From IMG/VR virus record IMGVR_UViG_3300007541_007663, positions 1-20,537 of that record: a stretch of DNA of 20,537 bases; one strand, written 5' to 3'. The position numbers and the translations under genes are program-made. The notes beneath the pieces were generated by a model that did not search any database, was not told the origin of the DNA, and saw nothing but the letters and a program-made list of their open reading frames with translations. Positions 4,805 to 19,490 of this stretch are shown here, in pieces. Source of the DNA: a virus. Numbering within the stretch: position 1 is the stretch's first letter; every line of letters begins with the position of its first letter.

Positions 4805-4996
4805 ATGCTAATAGTCGAAGTCAAAAATAATAACATAGAAAAAGCACTAAAAGTGCTAAAAGGAAAAGTTATTAAAACAAAACAGTTGGATATTCTAAGA
4901 AACAGAAAAGAATTCCAAAAAAAATCTGTGATCAGAAGAACTGAAATTAATAAAGCAAAATATATTCAGAGAAAAAAAGATTCAGAATCTTATTGA
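4805..4996 (+). CDS. rpsU: Phage-encoded ribosomal protein bS21
   Basis: Small-subunit ribosomal protein; a phage copy could replace or supplement the host protein on ribosomes. The 63 residues follow the Bacteroidota bS21 pattern along their whole length: a MLIVEVK strand, N-IEKALKVLKGK, the LRNRKEFQKKSVIRRTEINKA helix region, and KYIQRKKDSE. It is highly basic. Tyr53 aligns with the tyrosine near position 54 of Bacteroidota bS21 that, as I recall, contacts the 16S rRNA 3' tail. It is the only rightward gene inside the head module, and its last 7 bp overlap the end of the convergent 233-aa gene. No Shine-Dalgarno motif precedes the start; TATTTAGTA, close to the late-type element, ends 4 bp upstream. 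bS21 genes are known from other phages, and this is the most natural reading. Confidence 0.87.
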   Translation: MLIVEVKNNNIEKALKVLKGKVIKTKQLDILRNRKEFQKKSVIRRTEINKAKYIQRKKDSESY

Positions 4997-13349: not shown

Positions 13350-14102
13350 TTATTCAACCTCTTGATTTTCCAAAGACAGCTTTTTATCCATGAGTTTATT
13401 CTTAAAATCGTAAAGTTTGTCAATATATTGGTTACGTCTAAGGAATTTGAACACCAAATTCTCATAAGAAAATTCACCATCTTTCTCCAAACCCGAACTT
13501 CTATATTTTTTTAATTTTTCTTTAAACTTCTCAATTTTCCCTAAGGCTACATCCAATTCATCATCGGCAACATCATCCATCAAATTATCAATTTTTTCCA
13601 TGACATTAGCCACTTTCATCTTCAAGAATTCTTTGTCAATCGACACATTTTCTTTTTCTGGTTTGTGAATCCATTCGTCAAATAACACCGAATAAACTCC
13701 CGTAGAAAAATGAGTTTCATTCACATCTTCAGCATATAATTCTACTTCATAACCCTTTACCGTGATATTGTGAGTGGAATTAAATAAGGTTTTCTTTAAC
13801 TGAAATAGTTCTTTGTAAACCTCTCGATCTTTTGGGTCGAACTGAGAAAAATCAACATATAAATGAAGATCTATATCAGAGAATTCCGACCAATTAAAGT
13901 TAGCCAATGATCCTGTGAATCTTACGTCTTCTATGAACAAATTTTCACCCAAGTAATCCATGAATTCACCAGCAATTTCCAATAAAGCAATCCTAATATT
14001 TGACTTCAATACGGGATTGTCAGTATCAACATCATTCCAAATCTTTGGATTCAAAGTTTCCTTAGTTCCAAATGACATCAATATTTCAGAGTATTTGTCC
14101 AT
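13350..14102 (-). CDS. Nucleotidyltransferase-fold protein
   Basis: Likely transfers a nucleotide to an unknown acceptor. The 250 residues contain the Pol-beta-type signature RFTGSLANFNWSEFSDIDLH, with Gly64-Ser65 and the metal-binding pair D76 and D78. A third acidic strand, YEVELYAED, follows (E119/E121 candidates). The N-terminal ETLNPKIWNDVD followed by a helix (LKSNIRIALLEIAGEF) is a combination I associate with a phage-specific nucleotidyltransferase group. The C-terminal 90 residues are helical and charged. The catalytic residues are intact, so it is probably active. The substrate cannot be read from sequence; tRNA, protein or small molecule are all possible. TATTTATA ends 4 bp before the ATG. 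Confidence 0.82.
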   Translation of the reverse strand: MDKYSEILMSFGTKETLNPKIWNDVDTDNPVLKSNIRIALLEIAGEFMDYLGENLFIEDVRFTGSLANFNWSEFSDIDLHLYVDFSQFDPKDREVYKELFQLKKTLFNSTHNITVKGYEVELYAEDVNETHFSTGVYSVLFDEWIHKPEKENVSIDKEFLKMKVANVMEKIDNLMDDVADDELDVALGKIEKFKEKLKKYRSSGLEKDGEFSYENLVFKFLRRNQYIDKLYDFKNKLMDKKLSLENQEVE

Positions 14103-14126: not shown

Positions 14127-14372
14127 TTAAGGTAATTTTGTGAATTTGTAAGCTTTTGAAATCTTTGTGTTGAAATATTTTCCTTGTGATTCTGCCAATC
14201 TGAATTCCGCATAAACATTATGAGGTACATTCTCATATTCATATTTACTACCGTTCTTAAACTCAGCAATCATTTTTTTTGTTGCAGTATCATATTCAGT
14301 TTTGGAAATATTTGAAGAATCAATTTCATTGACAATTTTTGTTCCGTCGATTGTTTGTGATTTTACAGCCAT
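14127..14372 (-). CDS. KTSC-domain protein
   Basis: A small single-domain protein of the KTSC family (function unknown; the domain is seen alone or next to nucleic-acid enzymes). I chose ATG 14372 (MAVKSQTIDG, 81 aa) because it lies 1 bp after the stop of the upstream gene and the domain begins here. A longer in-frame reading to 14474 would overlap that gene by about 100 bp. Domain landmarks are the SSNISKTEYDTATKKMIAEF strands, KYEYENVP, then AESQGKYFNTKISKAYKF, where the family's usual Ser-Lys/Gly-Lys-x-(F/Y)-x-n-x-I pattern is visible. It is probably translated with the upstream 98-aa gene. Confidence 0.82.
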   Translation of the reverse strand: MAVKSQTIDGTKIVNEIDSSNISKTEYDTATKKMIAEFKNGSKYEYENVPHNVYAEFRLAESQGKYFNTKISKAYKFTKLP

Positions 14373-14373
14373 G

Positions 14374-14670
14374 TTACAAAGGGGTTTTTTTATCAATTCT
14401 ACCCAATAATTTGGTAAAGTAATCATCAATTTCAAATCCACCATCTTCAATGAGTCCAAACTTACGAGCATCACTTTTGATTTTTTTTATAGCGTAAATA
14501 ATTAACTCTCTTTGCATATACATGTTGTGAGTCATACCTTCACCACGTTCTAACTGACGATCTTTGATTCCGTTTTCAATGAACATTTTTCTCATTCTAA
14601 TGTACTCACGTAAAATATAATTTACATCAGAATTTTTCAGAGTTAGAAATCTTTTCAGTTGTGGTCTCAT
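14374..14670 (-). CDS. Unknown basic 98-aa protein
   Basis: No family recognised. I chose ATG 14670 (MRPQLKRFL). An upstream in-frame start at 14688 would lie beyond the TATTTATA element and inside a hairpin. The protein is basic and helical: LREYIRMRKMFIENGIKDRQ, MYMQRELIIYAIKKIKSDARK, then a more acidic end GGFEIDDYFTKLLGRI. It has no Cys or membrane segment. The stop is 1 bp before the KTSC start, which suggests coupled translation. Confidence 0.7.
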   Translation of the reverse strand: MRPQLKRFLTLKNSDVNYILREYIRMRKMFIENGIKDRQLERGEGMTHNMYMQRELIIYAIKKIKSDARKFGLIEDGGFEIDDYFTKLLGRIDKKTPL

Positions 14671-14852: not shown

Positions 14853-15323
14853 TTACATCTTCAACTTTTTGAGTTCTTCACGGATCTCGATCGCTCTTTC
14901 AAAGTTGTGGTCAGCAATTACCTGTTTGAGTTCAACTTCAAGTTTATCAATTGATTCTTGAGAGTTTTCTCGTTGTTTAATCTTATCACGGATGGCAATA
15001 GCCAATTCGTAATCTTCTGATTCAATCGCTAGTTGAAGTTCTTTTTGGAGTCCTTCAAGACCATTGTCTTTTTGTTTTTTGTTTTTGAATGGATTCATCA
15101 ACATATCGTCATCGAATCCTGAGGTACGGATAAAACTGGTGATCACAACTTTACCATCATTAGATGTGAAGGTTTCTTTGTTCCATTCACCATTTTCATC
15201 TTTTCCTTTTTCTATATTATTTTTTCCGTGGATACCAAATCTTCCACCGAACGGATTACTACGACCGAACATATTGTTTAGTTCATTGAACAAGTCATCA
15301 AAAGAATCACCTCTTCCAAACAT
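14853..15323 (-). CDS. UVR-motif protein, candidate partner of the phage ClpC
   Basis: A 156-aa protein with two UVR-type helical hairpins at the C-terminus: LQKELQLAIESEDYELAIAI (from about 92) and LEVELKQVIADHNFERAIEI (from about 128), each with the D/N-Y/F-E-x-A-x-x-I/L-R core. UVR motifs occur in UvrB, in the ClpC middle domain and in McsA-type ClpC regulators, where they mediate protein contacts. The N-terminus is Phe/Gly-rich (FGRGDSFDDLFNELNNMFGR), followed by a folded piece (WNKETFTSNDGKVVITSFIR) I do not recognise. It is divergent from the ClpC gene across a shared control region with two promoters of its own and two palindromes. An adaptor or regulator of the phage ClpC is the natural inference, not a demonstrated role. 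Confidence 0.8.
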   Translation of the reverse strand: MFGRGDSFDDLFNELNNMFGRSNPFGGRFGIHGKNNIEKGKDENGEWNKETFTSNDGKVVITSFIRTSGFDDDMLMNPFKNKKQKDNGLEGLQKELQLAIESEDYELAIAIRDKIKQRENSQESIDKLEVELKQVIADHNFERAIEIREELKKLKM

Positions 15324-15390
15324 ATTTTTTTCTTTTTAAATTTTTATTTGTTATCTTTGTCCCAATAATAGTAAATAATGTGCCAACAAC

Positions 15391-15421
15391 CAAAATTACT
15401 ATTCTCCTGACAAAATGTCAA
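15391..15421 (-). promoter_or_regulatory. Leftward host-type promoter P2 for the UVR gene
   Basis: On the minus strand TTG (15421-15419) is followed after 20 bases by TAATTTTG (15398-15391), a full match to TAnnTTTG. The TTG is within the edge of the palindrome at 15408-15420, so a protein bound there would cover the -33 region. Confidence 0.6.
15408..15420. promoter_or_regulatory. Operator-like palindrome, copy 1
   Basis: TGACA-AAA-TGTCA. Its centre lies 32 bp from copy 2, about three helical turns, so two bound dimers would sit on the same face of the DNA. It overlaps the -33 box of leftward promoter P2. Confidence 0.6.
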
Positions 15422-15423
15422 AA

Positions 15424-15453
15424 CAAAAATATAACAAACTGACAAATTGTCAA
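15424..15453 (-). promoter_or_regulatory. Leftward host-type promoter P1 for the UVR gene
   Basis: On the minus strand TTG (15453-15451) is followed after exactly 19 bases by TATTTTTG (15431-15424), a full match to TAnnTTTG. The -33 TTG overlaps palindrome copy 2, repeating the arrangement of P2. Confidence 0.6.
15440..15452. promoter_or_regulatory. Operator-like palindrome, copy 2
   Basis: TGACA-AAT-TGTCA. It overlaps the -33 of leftward promoter P1 and ends 3 bp before the -33 TTG of the rightward ClpC promoter, so one bound protein could control both directions. Confidence 0.6.
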
Positions 15454-15455
15454 TA

Positions 15456-15485
15456 TTGGTATTTGGAAAAATAATTGTATATTTG
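15456..15485 (+). promoter_or_regulatory. Rightward host-type promoter for the clpC-like gene
   Basis: TTG (15456-15458), 19 bases, TATATTTG (15478-15485) is a perfect match to the Bacteroidota primary sigma consensus. The -7 box ends 26 bp before the ATG. I see no Shine-Dalgarno motif in the leader. Confidence 0.75.
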
Positions 15486-15511
15486 TGGTGTAAATCAAAA
15501 ACTGAAATATC

Positions 15512-17506
15512 ATGATTGAATCTATGGACGATAACGATAAGGGAGCAAAATCCCGTCAAAAACAAAGTGGGACACCCGTCTTAGATAACTTTTCTAAAGA
15601 CCTTAACAAGATGGCCGCTGAGGGTAAACTTGACCCTGTAATCGGTCGGGAGATGGAAATCCACCGAATTGCACAAATCCTATCCCGTAGGAAAAAGAAT
15701 AACCCCATCATCGTGGGGGAACCTGGTAGTGGTAAAACCGCTATCGTAGAGGGACTCGCCAACAAGATCGTACAAGGCGATTGTCCCCGAAATCTTCGTG
15801 ATAAACGCATCGTCCTTTTGGACCTCACTTCAATTGTTGCGGGTACCAAATACCGTGGACAATTTGAGGAGCGTATGAAAGTTATTATCGAAGAACTGTC
15901 TGAAAATCCAGACATCATTATCTTTATCGACGAAATCCACACGATCGTAGGTGCCGGTAACGCATCTGGTTCAATGGACGCATCCAACATCTTCAAACCC
16001 GCTCTTGCCCGTGGTGAAATCCAATGTATTGGGGCAACAACTCTTGACGAGTACCGTACCAATTTCGAAAAAGACGGAGCACTTGAGCGTCGATTCCAAA
16101 AGGTGAGTATTGATTCTCCCTCTAAAGAAGAAACACTACTTATCCTTCAACAATCGAAATCACGTTATGAAGATTTCCACAAGGTCCTTTACACCGAAGA
16201 GATCTTGGAGATGTGTGTAAACCTTGCGGACCGTTACATCACCGATCGTGAATTTCCCGATAAAGCGTTTGACATCTTGGATGAGGTCGGAGCTCGTAGT
16301 CAAGTGGAAGTGAAAATTCCAGAGTCAATTGAGATTCTGAAGCAAAAAGCTGTAGAACTCAAACAACATAAATTGGACGTGGTCAAGAAACAAGATTACG
16401 AACAGGCTGCTGAGATTCGTGACAAAGAGAAAAAACTTTTGGAACGATTGGAGAAAGAAAAGGCTAAGTTCGAAAAAGAACAATCTGAAAACAAGAAATC
16501 CATCGAGCCAGAGTTGGTACTTGCTGTTGTGGCATCTATGACCAAAATCCCAGTGAACAAACTATCTCTTGATGATAAAGCGGCATTAGTTGGTTTGGAG
16601 GATTCTCTGAAAAAAGAAGTTATCGGTCAAGACGATGCTGTCAGCAAAATTGCTCGAGCAATGCGTCGTAACCGACTCGGAATCAAAGATCCAAACAAAC
16701 CAATCGGTTCATTCATCTTCTTGGGTTCAACAGGTGTAGGAAAAACTCACCTCGCAAAACAACTTGCAAAACAAATCTTCGGTTCTGCCGATAACCTGAT
16801 CCGAGTAGATATGTCTGAATATCAAGAGAAACACACCATTTCACGTTTGATTGGAGCACCTCCAGGATACGTGGGTTATGATGAGGGTGGCCAACTAACC
16901 GAACAGGTAAAGAACAAACCATACTCGGTTGTTCTTTTTGACGAGGTTGAAAAGGCAAACAAGGAGATCTTTCATACCCTTCTTCAAATGTTGGATGAAG
17001 GTCATCTTACAGATTCTTTGGGTCGTAAGATCAACTTCAAAAACACCCTCATTATCATGACCTCAAACATCGGTGTGAAGAAACTCCAAGACTTCGGTAC
17101 TGGTATCGGTTTTGGTGGTTCATCCTACTCGTCAGAGGAACAAAAGAAAGAGATCCTGAAGAAGGAAATGAAAAATTACTTCTCACCAGAATTTCTAAAC
17201 CGTATCGATGAGACCATCATCTTTAACTCTCTTGATCAAGTATCCCTTAAAAAGATTGTATCTATTGAACTCAATAAGTTGATGAAACGTCTAGGAGATC
17301 TAAAACTAAATTTCACTTTTGATGAAAAACTCGTTGATCATATCTCGAAAGTAGGGTTCGATGAGGTGTATGGCGCTCGACCTATCAAACGAGCAATTCA
17401 AGATGAAGTGGAAGACTTGGTTTCCGAATCCGTATTATCTGACACCGTAAAAGAAGGAGGGAGCTACACCCTCTCCGTGGAAGATGAAAAAGTGGTTATC
17501 AAGTAA
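15512..17506 (+). CDS. clpC: ClpC-like AAA+ unfoldase lacking the N-terminal domain
   Basis: ATP-driven protein unfoldase that would feed substrates into ClpP. The 664 residues start almost directly at the first AAA+ module (TPVLDNFSKDLNKMAAEGKLDPVIGRE, 21-47); the double Clp_N domain of full-length ClpC (about 840 aa) is absent. First module: GEPGSGKT (69-76), IIIFIDEIH (D140, E141), pore loop KYRG, finger LERRF (191-195). Middle domain about 278-325, with the UVR-like core KQDYEQAAEIRDKEKKL. Second module: GSTGVGKT (405-412), pore loop PGYVGYDEGG, VVLFDEVEK (D477, E478), NRIDE (563-567), GARPIKR. GIGFG (531-535) sits where ClpA/ClpC carry the ClpP-docking tripeptide. All ATPase motifs are intact. 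No clpP gene lies in the window, so the host ClpP is the likely partner. C-ending codons are more frequent than in neighbouring genes. Confidence 0.93.
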   Translation: MIESMDDNDKGAKSRQKQSGTPVLDNFSKDLNKMAAEGKLDPVIGREMEIHRIAQILSRRKKNNPIIVGEPGSGKTAIVEGLANKIVQGDCPRNLRDKRIVLLDLTSIVAGTKYRGQFEERMKVIIEELSENPDIIIFIDEIHTIVGAGNASGSMDASNIFKPALARGEIQCIGATTLDEYRTNFEKDGALERRFQKVSIDSPSKEETLLILQQSKSRYEDFHKVLYTEEILEMCVNLADRYITDREFPDKAFDILDEVGARSQVEVKIPESIEILKQKAVELKQHKLDVVKKQDYEQAAEIRDKEKKLLERLEKEKAKFEKEQSENKKSIEPELVLAVVASMTKIPVNKLSLDDKAALVGLEDSLKKEVIGQDDAVSKIARAMRRNRLGIKDPNKPIGSFIFLGSTGVGKTHLAKQLAKQIFGSADNLIRVDMSEYQEKHTISRLIGAPPGYVGYDEGGQLTEQVKNKPYSVVLFDEVEKANKEIFHTLLQMLDEGHLTDSLGRKINFKNTLIIMTSNIGVKKLQDFGTGIGFGGSSYSSEEQKKEILKKEMKNYFSPEFLNRIDETIIFNSLDQVSLKKIVSIELNKLMKRLGDLKLNFTFDEKLVDHISKVGFDEVYGARPIKRAIQDEVEDLVSESVLSDTVKEGGSYTLSVEDEKVVIK

Positions 17507-17753: not shown

Positions 17754-18353
17754 CTATTCAACATCTTCATTTCGATTCAACCAAGTAGTCAGAATATATT
17801 TATCATTTGAAATTGGCATATGTCCTCGGTGGACATAAGGCCAAGGTGCTGGCCATACCAAAAATGTTCCCTGAGTAGGTTTTATCATCATTTCTTGATG
17901 TAAAAATTCGGTCTCACCACCTTCTTCTACATCATTAAGATAGAACATAACAGCGAATATTCGATTGTAGAATTCATAATATTCTCCTTCAGTGTGATAG
18001 GATTTGAAATGTCCTTCCCCTTTTTTATATTTCTGAAGTTGCCAAACAGGATAATATGTTCCATTTCCAAACAAATATTGAAAGGTATTAAATTCATCGT
18101 TTGTTGGGAATTTAGAAACATAGTCATTTACCTTTTCATTCGCAACTCTGACAATCCAATCGGTTTCGGATTTAAATTCTTCATGTGCTGCAATGTCAAA
18201 ATCGGTAGTATCTTTATACTCCGTGTTGTATCCGGATGCAGTTACACCAGAATAATGTAAGTGGGGATTTTCTTCGAAAATTCTGATTAATTTCTCACAA
18301 AAAGCTTTAGATAGAGCTCCAGGGTAAACTCCTATTGTATCCTTGACGTTCAT
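17754..18353 (-). CDS. 2-oxoglutarate/Fe(II)-dependent oxygenase (prolyl 4-hydroxylase-like)
   Basis: Probable hydroxylase using Fe(II), O2 and 2-oxoglutarate. The 199 residues show the double-stranded beta-helix signature: YKKGEGHFKSYHTEGE with the metal pair H120-x-E122 (Glu in place of the more common Asp), FAVMFYLND followed by GGETEF (145-150), GTFLVWPAPWPYVHRG with the second metal His175, and NDKYILTTWLN with K185 as the likely 2-oxoglutarate contact. The family includes prolyl hydroxylases, found in many T4-like phages; the substrate is unknown. It is the last gene of a leftward unit. Its start overlaps the peptidase gene by 47 bp, and a terminator follows its stop. No signal peptide, so it is cytosolic. 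Confidence 0.87.
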   Translation of the reverse strand: MNVKDTIGVYPGALSKAFCEKLIRIFEENPHLHYSGVTASGYNTEYKDTTDFDIAAHEEFKSETDWIVRVANEKVNDYVSKFPTNDEFNTFQYLFGNGTYYPVWQLQKYKKGEGHFKSYHTEGEYYEFYNRIFAVMFYLNDVEEGGETEFLHQEMMIKPTQGTFLVWPAPWPYVHRGHMPISNDKYILTTWLNRNEDVE

Positions 18354-19140
18354 ATTCGTGTTTAGTATATCCTAATCTATTTATCATCTCGTGTGCAGTA
18401 TGGATAGAATTTTGAAGATCCTCCACAACAACATACTCGTGCATCGTATGATAATTATAATAACCACAAGAAAAATTTATACAGGAAAAATCAAATTTCA
18501 TTTTCAATTGTGAAACATCTGTATAAGGGTGGATCTGAAACTCGTGGTGTGCAAACATTTCTGTCAAAACTTCATCAGCAATTCGGAAAAATTCCGAATT
18601 CCGATCAAATAAACGCACACCTGAACAGACTTCAGTAACCATGTAATTACTTGGGGCGTCCAACTGAATTGCATATGCAACATCCGAGAAAAACTCGGGA
18701 CTAGCTTGTCTAGAACCTATACACCCTACTTCCTCAGACACAAAAAATGCTGCTTTTACGTGAGGTAAGTTTCGAAGTGAAATCAAAGCACCATACACAC
18801 CACATTTATCATCACCACCAATACCAACAGGTTTACCATTTGGTCCATATCCCTTCAAGGACAATTTAGGTTGCTTTTGACGATTTGGTAGTTGTTCCTC
18901 TCGGACGATAATTTCATCTTCGAAATGGTGAACTGTGTCGGTATGTGCAACCATACAAGGGTAGAGTTTATCCTCATACCCTTGCGTGGTTTTGGTGGCA
19001 TAAACATTCATCATCTCATCGACTACATAAGGAATTCCCTCTTTGTCCAACCAATCACAAATGTATTGGACCATAAGTTCTTCATTGTAAGTTGCCGTGC
19101 GAACTGACAACAGTTCTTTCAAAAATTCTAAGTCATTCAT
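18307..19140 (-). CDS. Compact zinc metallopeptidase (M20/M28/M42-like)
   Basis: Aminopeptidase- or deacylase-type metalloenzyme. The 277 residues contain the co-catalytic metal set in order: MVAHTDTVHH (H66, D68), GIGGDDKCGVYGAL (D110/D111), VSEEVGCIGS (general base E136, ligand E137), QLDAP (D161), and YHTMHEY (H231, with H234 as alternative), preceded by YTDVSQ (D208). M20 and M42 enzymes usually have 350-400 residues. Here only about 70 residues separate D161 from H231, so the lid/dimerisation domain is reduced or missing. M28-type enzymes are closer in size. The ATG overlaps the stop of the cREC gene (ATGA), indicating coupled translation. Possible roles are peptide salvage or trimming of a specific peptide or amide; the sequence does not decide. 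Confidence 0.85.
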   Translation of the reverse strand: MNDLEFLKELLSVRTATYNEELMVQYICDWLDKEGIPYVVDEMMNVYATKTTQGYEDKLYPCMVAHTDTVHHFEDEIIVREEQLPNRQKQPKLSLKGYGPNGKPVGIGGDDKCGVYGALISLRNLPHVKAAFFVSEEVGCIGSRQASPEFFSDVAYAIQLDAPSNYMVTEVCSGVRLFDRNSEFFRIADEVLTEMFAHHEFQIHPYTDVSQLKMKFDFSCINFSCGYYNYHTMHEYVVVEDLQNSIHTAHEMINRLGYTKHEYERQGYNRSLPWSSI

Positions 19141-19490
19141 TTTCCGATGGATTTACGATAGTTTGAAAGAATTGAATTGATGTTTTGACGACCAACAGGA
19201 TTGGCACTTTGAATTGACCACGTAGGAACATCAATTCCACCATTATCCATACAGTAATTCACCAACCATTTTGCGGCGTTATGACCAGTACCAAGTTCAT
19301 CGTCACCCAAATCATGATCAAAGAAGATTTCATCAGGGAGACCAAACTCACGGATATAATCAACAAACTCGGGGTATTCTTTCACCCAAACAATCTCATC
19401 AACTTTCGAATCGTACTCAGGGATATATTGATCCCTCCATACACTCATATTCGGATCCCGAATGTCGTCTAACCACAAATACGTTTTCAT
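19137..19490 (-). CDS. Small receiver-like protein (cREC family)
   Basis: A 117-aa single-domain protein matching the cyclic-phosphate-processing receiver-like (cREC) family. It has YLWLDDIRDP (4-13) with the acidic pair, IFFDHDLGDDELGTGHNAAKWL (55-76) with the D-H-D-L-G core, and a final WSIQSANPVGRQNI (91-104). This family has been linked by comparative genomics to RNA end repair, but its reaction is not established to my knowledge. It begins the cREC-peptidase-oxygenase unit, directly behind a perfect host-type promoter, and its stop overlaps the peptidase start by 4 bp. Confidence 0.75.
   Translation of the reverse strand: MKTYLWLDDIRDPNMSVWRDQYIPEYDSKVDEIVWVKEYPEFVDYIREFGLPDEIFFDHDLGDDELGTGHNAAKWLVNYCMDNGGIDVPTWSIQSANPVGRQNINSILSNYRKSIGK

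Follow-up and report, generated by a model that had tools for sequence, protein, structure and literature searches.

A small protein with two UVR motifs and an Hsp20 protein replace each other, among related phages, in the slot next to the gene for a ClpC-type unfoldase that has no N-domain. The case that we analyzed lies in a window of 20,537 nucleotides, a linear virus record of 20.5 kb (IMGVR_UViG_3300007541_007663). We interpret the arrangement as a phage proteostasis module in which the UVR protein would bind the N-less ClpC and act as its replacement adaptor or activator, a reading to which, from sequence comparisons, we assign a probability of roughly one half. The phages that carry an N-less ClpC together with a partner are many, large and from freshwater, and their hosts are probably Bacteroidota. 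No description of this composition (an N-less ClpC, a UVR protein interchangeable with Hsp20, and an operator shared with dnaK) was found in the open-licence literature searched.

An N-less ClpC and its divergent UVR protein

The window covers part of the genome of a bS21-type, T4-like phage that presumably infects Bacteroidota. Its minus strand carries T4-like head genes (Gp23-type capsid protein, S77 prohead protease, portal and terminase), and the gene for ribosomal protein bS21 lies antisense inside this block (Table 1), which is the layout reported for freshwater Bacteroidetes-infecting bS21 phages (PMC9723584) and the reason why the host is presumed to belong to the Bacteroidota. The promoters predicted in the control region of the pair are of Bacteroidota type, in agreement with this host.

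Table 1. Features of the window, with positions numbered from its first nucleotide.
Feature	Position	Strand	Basis or remark
Ribosomal protein bS21 gene	4805-4996	+	Pfam Ribosomal_S21, E 4.8e-10; antisense inside head-gene block
Nucleotidyltransferase-like gene	13350-14102	-	conserved
KTSC-domain gene	14127-14474	-	
UVR partner protein, 156 aa	14853-15323	-	two UVR motifs, Pfam E 1.6e-11
Shared divergent control region	15324-15511	.	188 bp
Operator copy 1, TGACAAAATGTCA	15408-15420	.	13-bp palindrome
Predicted Bacteroidota-type UVR-gene promoter, TTG-N19-TATTTTTG	15424-15453	-	conserved in only 8/87 U-type regions; 1.9% of shuffles
Operator copy 2, TGACAAATTGTCA	15440-15452	.	13-bp palindrome; overlaps predicted -33 element of UVR gene
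Predicted Bacteroidota-type clpC promoter, TTG-N19-TATATTTG	15456-15485	+	ClpC-ward match in 38/87 U-type regions; 1.6% of shuffles
ClpC-type Hsp100 unfoldase without N-domain, 664 aa	15512-17506	+	Pfam, PDB profile, alignment
2OG oxygenase gene	17754-18353		
M20/M42-type peptidase gene	18307-19140	-	
cREC_REC (cyclic-phosphate processing receiver) domain protein	19137-19490	-	Pfam E 4.1e-20

The Pfam matches of the ClpC open reading frame comprise AAA_2 (E 5.5e-66), AAA_lid_9 and ClpB_D2-small. Clp_N is not among the 25 families shown for it, and the alignment to its closest solved relative, S. aureus ClpC, begins at residue 149 of the chain, which bears out the original prediction of a ClpC without N-domain. 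Distinct phage ClpCs, where measurable, have short N-termini (usually 37-60 and at most 70 residues ahead of the first AAA module), so the absence of the domain is not a local truncation; as Clp_N is absent from the window protein and its relatives alike, we call these proteins N-less ClpC-like rather than full ClpC. The window protein has two AAA+ modules with Walker A and B motifs, pore loops and arginine finger, and these motor motifs are conserved among the phage ClpCs. The ClpP-docking loop reads GIGF, with [ILV]GF in 196 of 202 phage ClpCs, and the short middle domain contains a UVR-like hairpin with Y296, R303 and D304. In the alignment, residue 296 (Y or F) corresponds to F436 of S. 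aureus ClpC and is aromatic in 199/199 phage ClpCs, while R303 is kept in 199/199 and D304 in 198/199. A ClpB disaggregase was rejected on account of the short middle domain, which aligns with that of ClpC, the GIGF loop, and a score of 813 bits against a ClpB cut-off of 1232. ClpC-like open reading frames of 701 and 707 aa, also without an N-domain-sized region, occur in the huge phages LR745206 and LR756502, and N-less ClpC therefore extends beyond this clade; UVR or Hsp20 partners of the present types were not found in the slots of these two phages.

The two UVR hairpins of the leftward gene, likewise part of the original prediction, were recovered at residues 88-155 of its product, behind an N-terminal aromatic helix (8-21), a low-confidence beta region (33-66) and a disordered linker. 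AlphaFold2 was run with 28 and then with 69 homologues; the second model had the same elements at similarly low confidence. Confidence was modest overall (mean pLDDT 64-66, pTM about 0.3) and about 80-85 pLDDT for helical region 88-155 in the second model; a fold search of the first model against the PDB gave no match at E <= 0.001. In all 69 UVR proteins, the two hairpins each retain an aromatic residue and an arginine followed by D or E (N in one instance). This aromatic-A-RD pattern is a general UVR signature that is expected in any UVR protein, and it is therefore, taken alone, no proof of docking on ClpC. The best PDB profile match, which spans the UVR part only, is McsA (8wtb_B, E 1.6e-6). 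Identity with McsA was nevertheless rejected, given the absence of the zinc-finger cysteines (no cysteine in the window protein, 0-2 across the 69 homologues) and a score of 31.6 bits against the McsA cut-off of 210; no McsB-like gene was recognized in the window. The N-terminal region was also rejected as a degenerate Hsp20 (hhalign probability 1.7% against the Hsp20 partners, no Pfam HSP20 match). Only a short aromatic-helix motif is common to the N-termini of UVR and Hsp20 proteins (strict form in 40% and 32%, respectively, and in 0.08% of background open reading frames), an enrichment that is descriptive because the motif was picked by eye on the same sequences. Among the matches listed there was no full-length bacterial relative of the UVR protein, but three weak UVR-only matches.

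A swappable slot and an operator shared with dnaK

Relatives of the window ClpC were present in more than 600 viral stretches, of which the best 80 were kept. The divergent slot holds a UVR gene in 37 of these, an Hsp20 gene in 19 and neither in 24; one of the 24 has DnaK in the slot, and two (L059, L067) begin at a contig edge, so that their slot content is not visible. A second ClpC search centre gave 54 loci without partner, 23 with UVR and 3 with Hsp20, and slot proportions therefore vary with the region of the tree that is sampled. Seen from the partners, the pairing is repeated much more often than chance would allow: ClpC is the divergent neighbour in 85 of 89 viral loci retrieved by similarity to the UVR protein, the other four being contig ends at the UVR gene, and the same applies to 79 of 80 Hsp20 loci (the exception lies at a contig end), in sets that were all gathered by similarity, share contigs and are biased to close relatives. 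No locus among those examined has UVR and Hsp20 together; Hsp20 is absent from 16 whole U-type records and the UVR protein from 7 whole H-type records. Mapped onto the ClpC tree, the slot types require about 21 changes, and well-supported branches alone require no fewer than 10 changes for the Hsp20 label and 13 for the UVR label. Sister ClpCs can have unlike slots, as in L015 (Hsp20) and L049 (UVR) or L060 (DnaK) and L080 (UVR). Transfer of the partner gene by recombination between phages could explain the swaps, and our conclusion that one slot is served by different partners would still hold.

The co-occurrence of UVR protein and N-less ClpC was thus found to be conserved, as proposed. The UVR protein is not, however, obligatory for ClpC or exclusive to it, since the slot is occupied by Hsp20 about as often, once by DnaK, and is empty in many cases, and since UVR genes also occur in operons with dnaK. 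UVR homologues that are common in phages without any Clp ATPase had been named as evidence against a partnership; the proposal largely withstands this check, with no match to the UVR protein in 50,697 phage records and no full-length bacterial relative among the matches listed.

ClpP is carried by 16/25 and 15/34 large records in two samples. Sorted by slot type, it is present in 26/37 UVR or Hsp20 records versus 4/21 of the rest. A rule that a partner implies ClpP was near-perfect in the first sample (16/18 with partner, 0/7 without) and was weakened by the second (10/19 versus 4/14), and we treat the association as a tendency only because the records are fragments and the lineages are not independent. 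The one ClpP inspected (L257, from the record of L003, a close relative of the window) scores 240.8 bits with PRK14514, which falls below the equivalog cut-off of 361 bits, and 68.8 bits with the head-maturation model; by these scores it is of the ClpP family rather than a head-maturation protease. The 20,537-nt window itself has no ClpP gene. As many related phages also encode ClpP, the description of the system as self-contained is now better justified than when it was proposed.

The control region between the two genes had been described as containing back-to-back promoters and two palindromes, and both features were retrieved: promoters of Bacteroidota type (TTG-N19-TANNTTTG) are predicted in both directions, and each palindrome is a copy of the operator TGACANNNTGTCA, which is rare (0-3 occurrences per 90-320-kb record). 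The expected number of palindrome matches per window is 0.03, and two were reached in 0/100 shuffles. Within 330 bp upstream of ClpC, TGACANNNTGTCA has an exact match in 72/86 UVR-type regions (86/86 when one mismatch is allowed), in 29/67 Hsp20-type regions (60/67) and upstream of 0/50 partnerless ClpCs (2/50), with 0 exact matches and 0.7% with one mismatch in the shuffled control.

Tracing TGACANNNTGTCA sites away from ClpC led to dnaK, which lies far off in the genome. The operator precedes all ten phage dnaK loci examined (nine exact, one with one mismatch) at a distance of 47-112 bp, or of 558 bp where a UVR gene intervenes. The latter order, operator, UVR gene and dnaK with 4 bp between the genes, characterizes one subclade (7/7 loci, several of them near-identical) and suggests a wider chaperone role for the UVR protein. 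The distribution of the palindrome points to a phage chaperone regulon, which would be regulated through the TGACANNNTGTCA operator. We know of no described chaperone regulon in phages of Bacteroidota. The possibility that TGACANNNTGTCA is the operator of host dnaK was rejected for the Bacteroidales examined: the upstream regions of three dnaK genes from this order have no exact site and only matches with two mismatches. Inspection by eye showed a TTGGCAYA-like element about 11 bp past the palindrome, at nearly fixed spacing, upstream of phage dnaK (L351, L353, L357, L361); TTGGCAYN-like elements resembling sigma-54 promoters were also seen by eye at the three Bacteroidales dnaK genes.

Possible modes of action of the UVR protein

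The middle domain of S. aureus ClpC holds the inactive state, from which mutations of F436, R443 and D444 release the protein (PMC5699869). ClpC from which the N-domain has been removed forms head-to-head dimers and rods via the middle domain; in the head-to-head state it binds ClpP but shows no proteolysis before the middle-domain contacts are disrupted, and the adaptors characterized so far bind the N-domain, MecA contacting the middle-domain tip in addition (PMC12583610). Plastid ClpC1 traps several UVR proteins (PMC8889267). We propose that the N-less phage ClpC is a working unfoldase, probably feeding a ClpP that is encoded elsewhere, as in many related phages, or supplied by the host. 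The UVR hairpins would mimic the surface through which ClpC middle domains self-associate, and they retain the residues with which these domains keep ClpC inactive, so that the UVR protein may dock on the middle-domain tips and thereby open the repressed assembly. Clients would be held by its N-terminal aromatic helix and beta region and presented to ClpC. In other phages Hsp20 would fill this place, and its presence in the same slot suggests that the shared job is the handing of unfolded or aggregated proteins to ClpC. For the window phage we infer binding of the UVR protein to ClpC, activation, client delivery and the use of ClpP on these grounds. The UVR-dnaK operon is not predicted by an adaptor that serves ClpC only, and the many partnerless ClpCs, together with a ClpP that is not always encoded, speak against the adaptor reading in general. 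More tentatively, the UVR protein may represent a new class of Hsp100 adaptor that activates an N-less ClpC by copying its middle-domain face, within a regulon of ClpC, ClpP, UVR or Hsp20 and DnaK in which the UVR protein and Hsp20 are interchangeable client deliverers and one dedicated operator governs the whole set; we regard this wider proposal as possible rather than probable.

The exchange with Hsp20, the operon with dnaK and the N-terminal aromatic-helix motif common to both partners could also be accounted for by a general, sHsp-like holdase or co-chaperone that holds proteins of the phage or the host in solution for DnaK or ClpC without a specific contact to the middle domain. This is unlikely, however, as two UVR hairpins are unusual for holdases and typical of partners of Clp, McsA or Uvr, the comparison with the Hsp20 profile (1.7%) indicates no homology, and the shared motif is the one picked by eye. 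It is also conceivable that the genes merely form a stress regulon under one operator, with products that do not contact each other, which would agree with the same operator upstream of the distant dnaK and with the frequency of partnerless ClpC; the strict adjacency of divergent UVR and ClpC genes across many lineages and the mutual exclusion of UVR and Hsp20 make this distinctly improbable. A brake or decoy that shields the middle domain of the phage ClpC, or obstructs the ClpC or the McsA-type regulators of the host, and so prevents harmful proteolysis is very improbable, since the Hsp20 exchange is hard to reconcile with it and phages with partnerless ClpC exist. In its favour are the toxicity of deregulated ClpC for cells (PMC5699869) and the likeness of the UVR hairpins to the self-repressing surface.

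Should the UVR protein prove to be an adaptor that works independently of the N-domain, it would show how an Hsp100 protein can be switched on via the middle domain alone and would offer a direct test of a model derived from mutants (F436A, delta-N ClpC). The exchange of UVR and Hsp20 is a natural experiment on what is required of a ClpC partner, and a gene otherwise annotated merely as 'UVR motif protein' would receive a role.

Related systems and genomic surroundings

Bacterial ClpC (S. aureus 6em8, B. subtilis 3j3r) has, like the phage protein, two AAA+ modules, a short middle domain with the equivalents of F436, R443 and D444, and a ClpP-docking loop, whereas the phage ClpC is N-less, phage-borne and accompanied by a divergent UVR or Hsp20 partner. 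Delta-N ClpC constructs (PMC12583610) have the same domain make-up but are artificial deletions, while the phage form is natural and has a candidate middle-domain partner. McsA, the activator of a protein-arginine kinase, shares the UVR motif with the phage UVR protein and differs from it in its zinc-finger cysteines. Plastid ClpF, EXE1/2 and other UVR proteins trapped by ClpC1 (PMC8889267) are likewise associated with ClpC; these, however, are plant proteins with other domains, and their ClpC has an N-domain. Gp53 of phage SPO1 (PMC6873191) resembles the proposed role of the UVR partner in being a phage-encoded, adaptor-like protein that acts on ClpC, but it targets host ClpC, probably overlapping the MecA/McsB site, and is not a UVR protein paired with a phage ClpC. 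For phages with predicted Bacteroidota hosts, chaperones and Clp protease have been noted in bS21 phages (PMC9723584) and DnaK, DnaJ and Hsp20 in moraphages (PMC12619734). The UVR partner, the partner exchange and the shared operator are not mentioned in either paper as searched. The original statement that no phage system of this composition was known agrees with the literature searched, in which no description of the UVR partner was found, although chaperones and Clp protease had been noted in such phages.

PADLOC models gave nothing specific for the pair (no match for the UVR protein, partial AAA-ATPase matches only for ClpC), and an anti-phage defence system thus received no support. In many related loci, as in the window, the nucleotidyltransferase-like and KTSC-domain genes adjoin the partner slot. 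Most of the related loci listed have a gene for an M20/M42-type peptidase downstream of ClpC, usually convergent; in the window, the 2OG oxygenase gene separates the two, and the cREC_REC domain protein is encoded on the far side of the peptidase gene.
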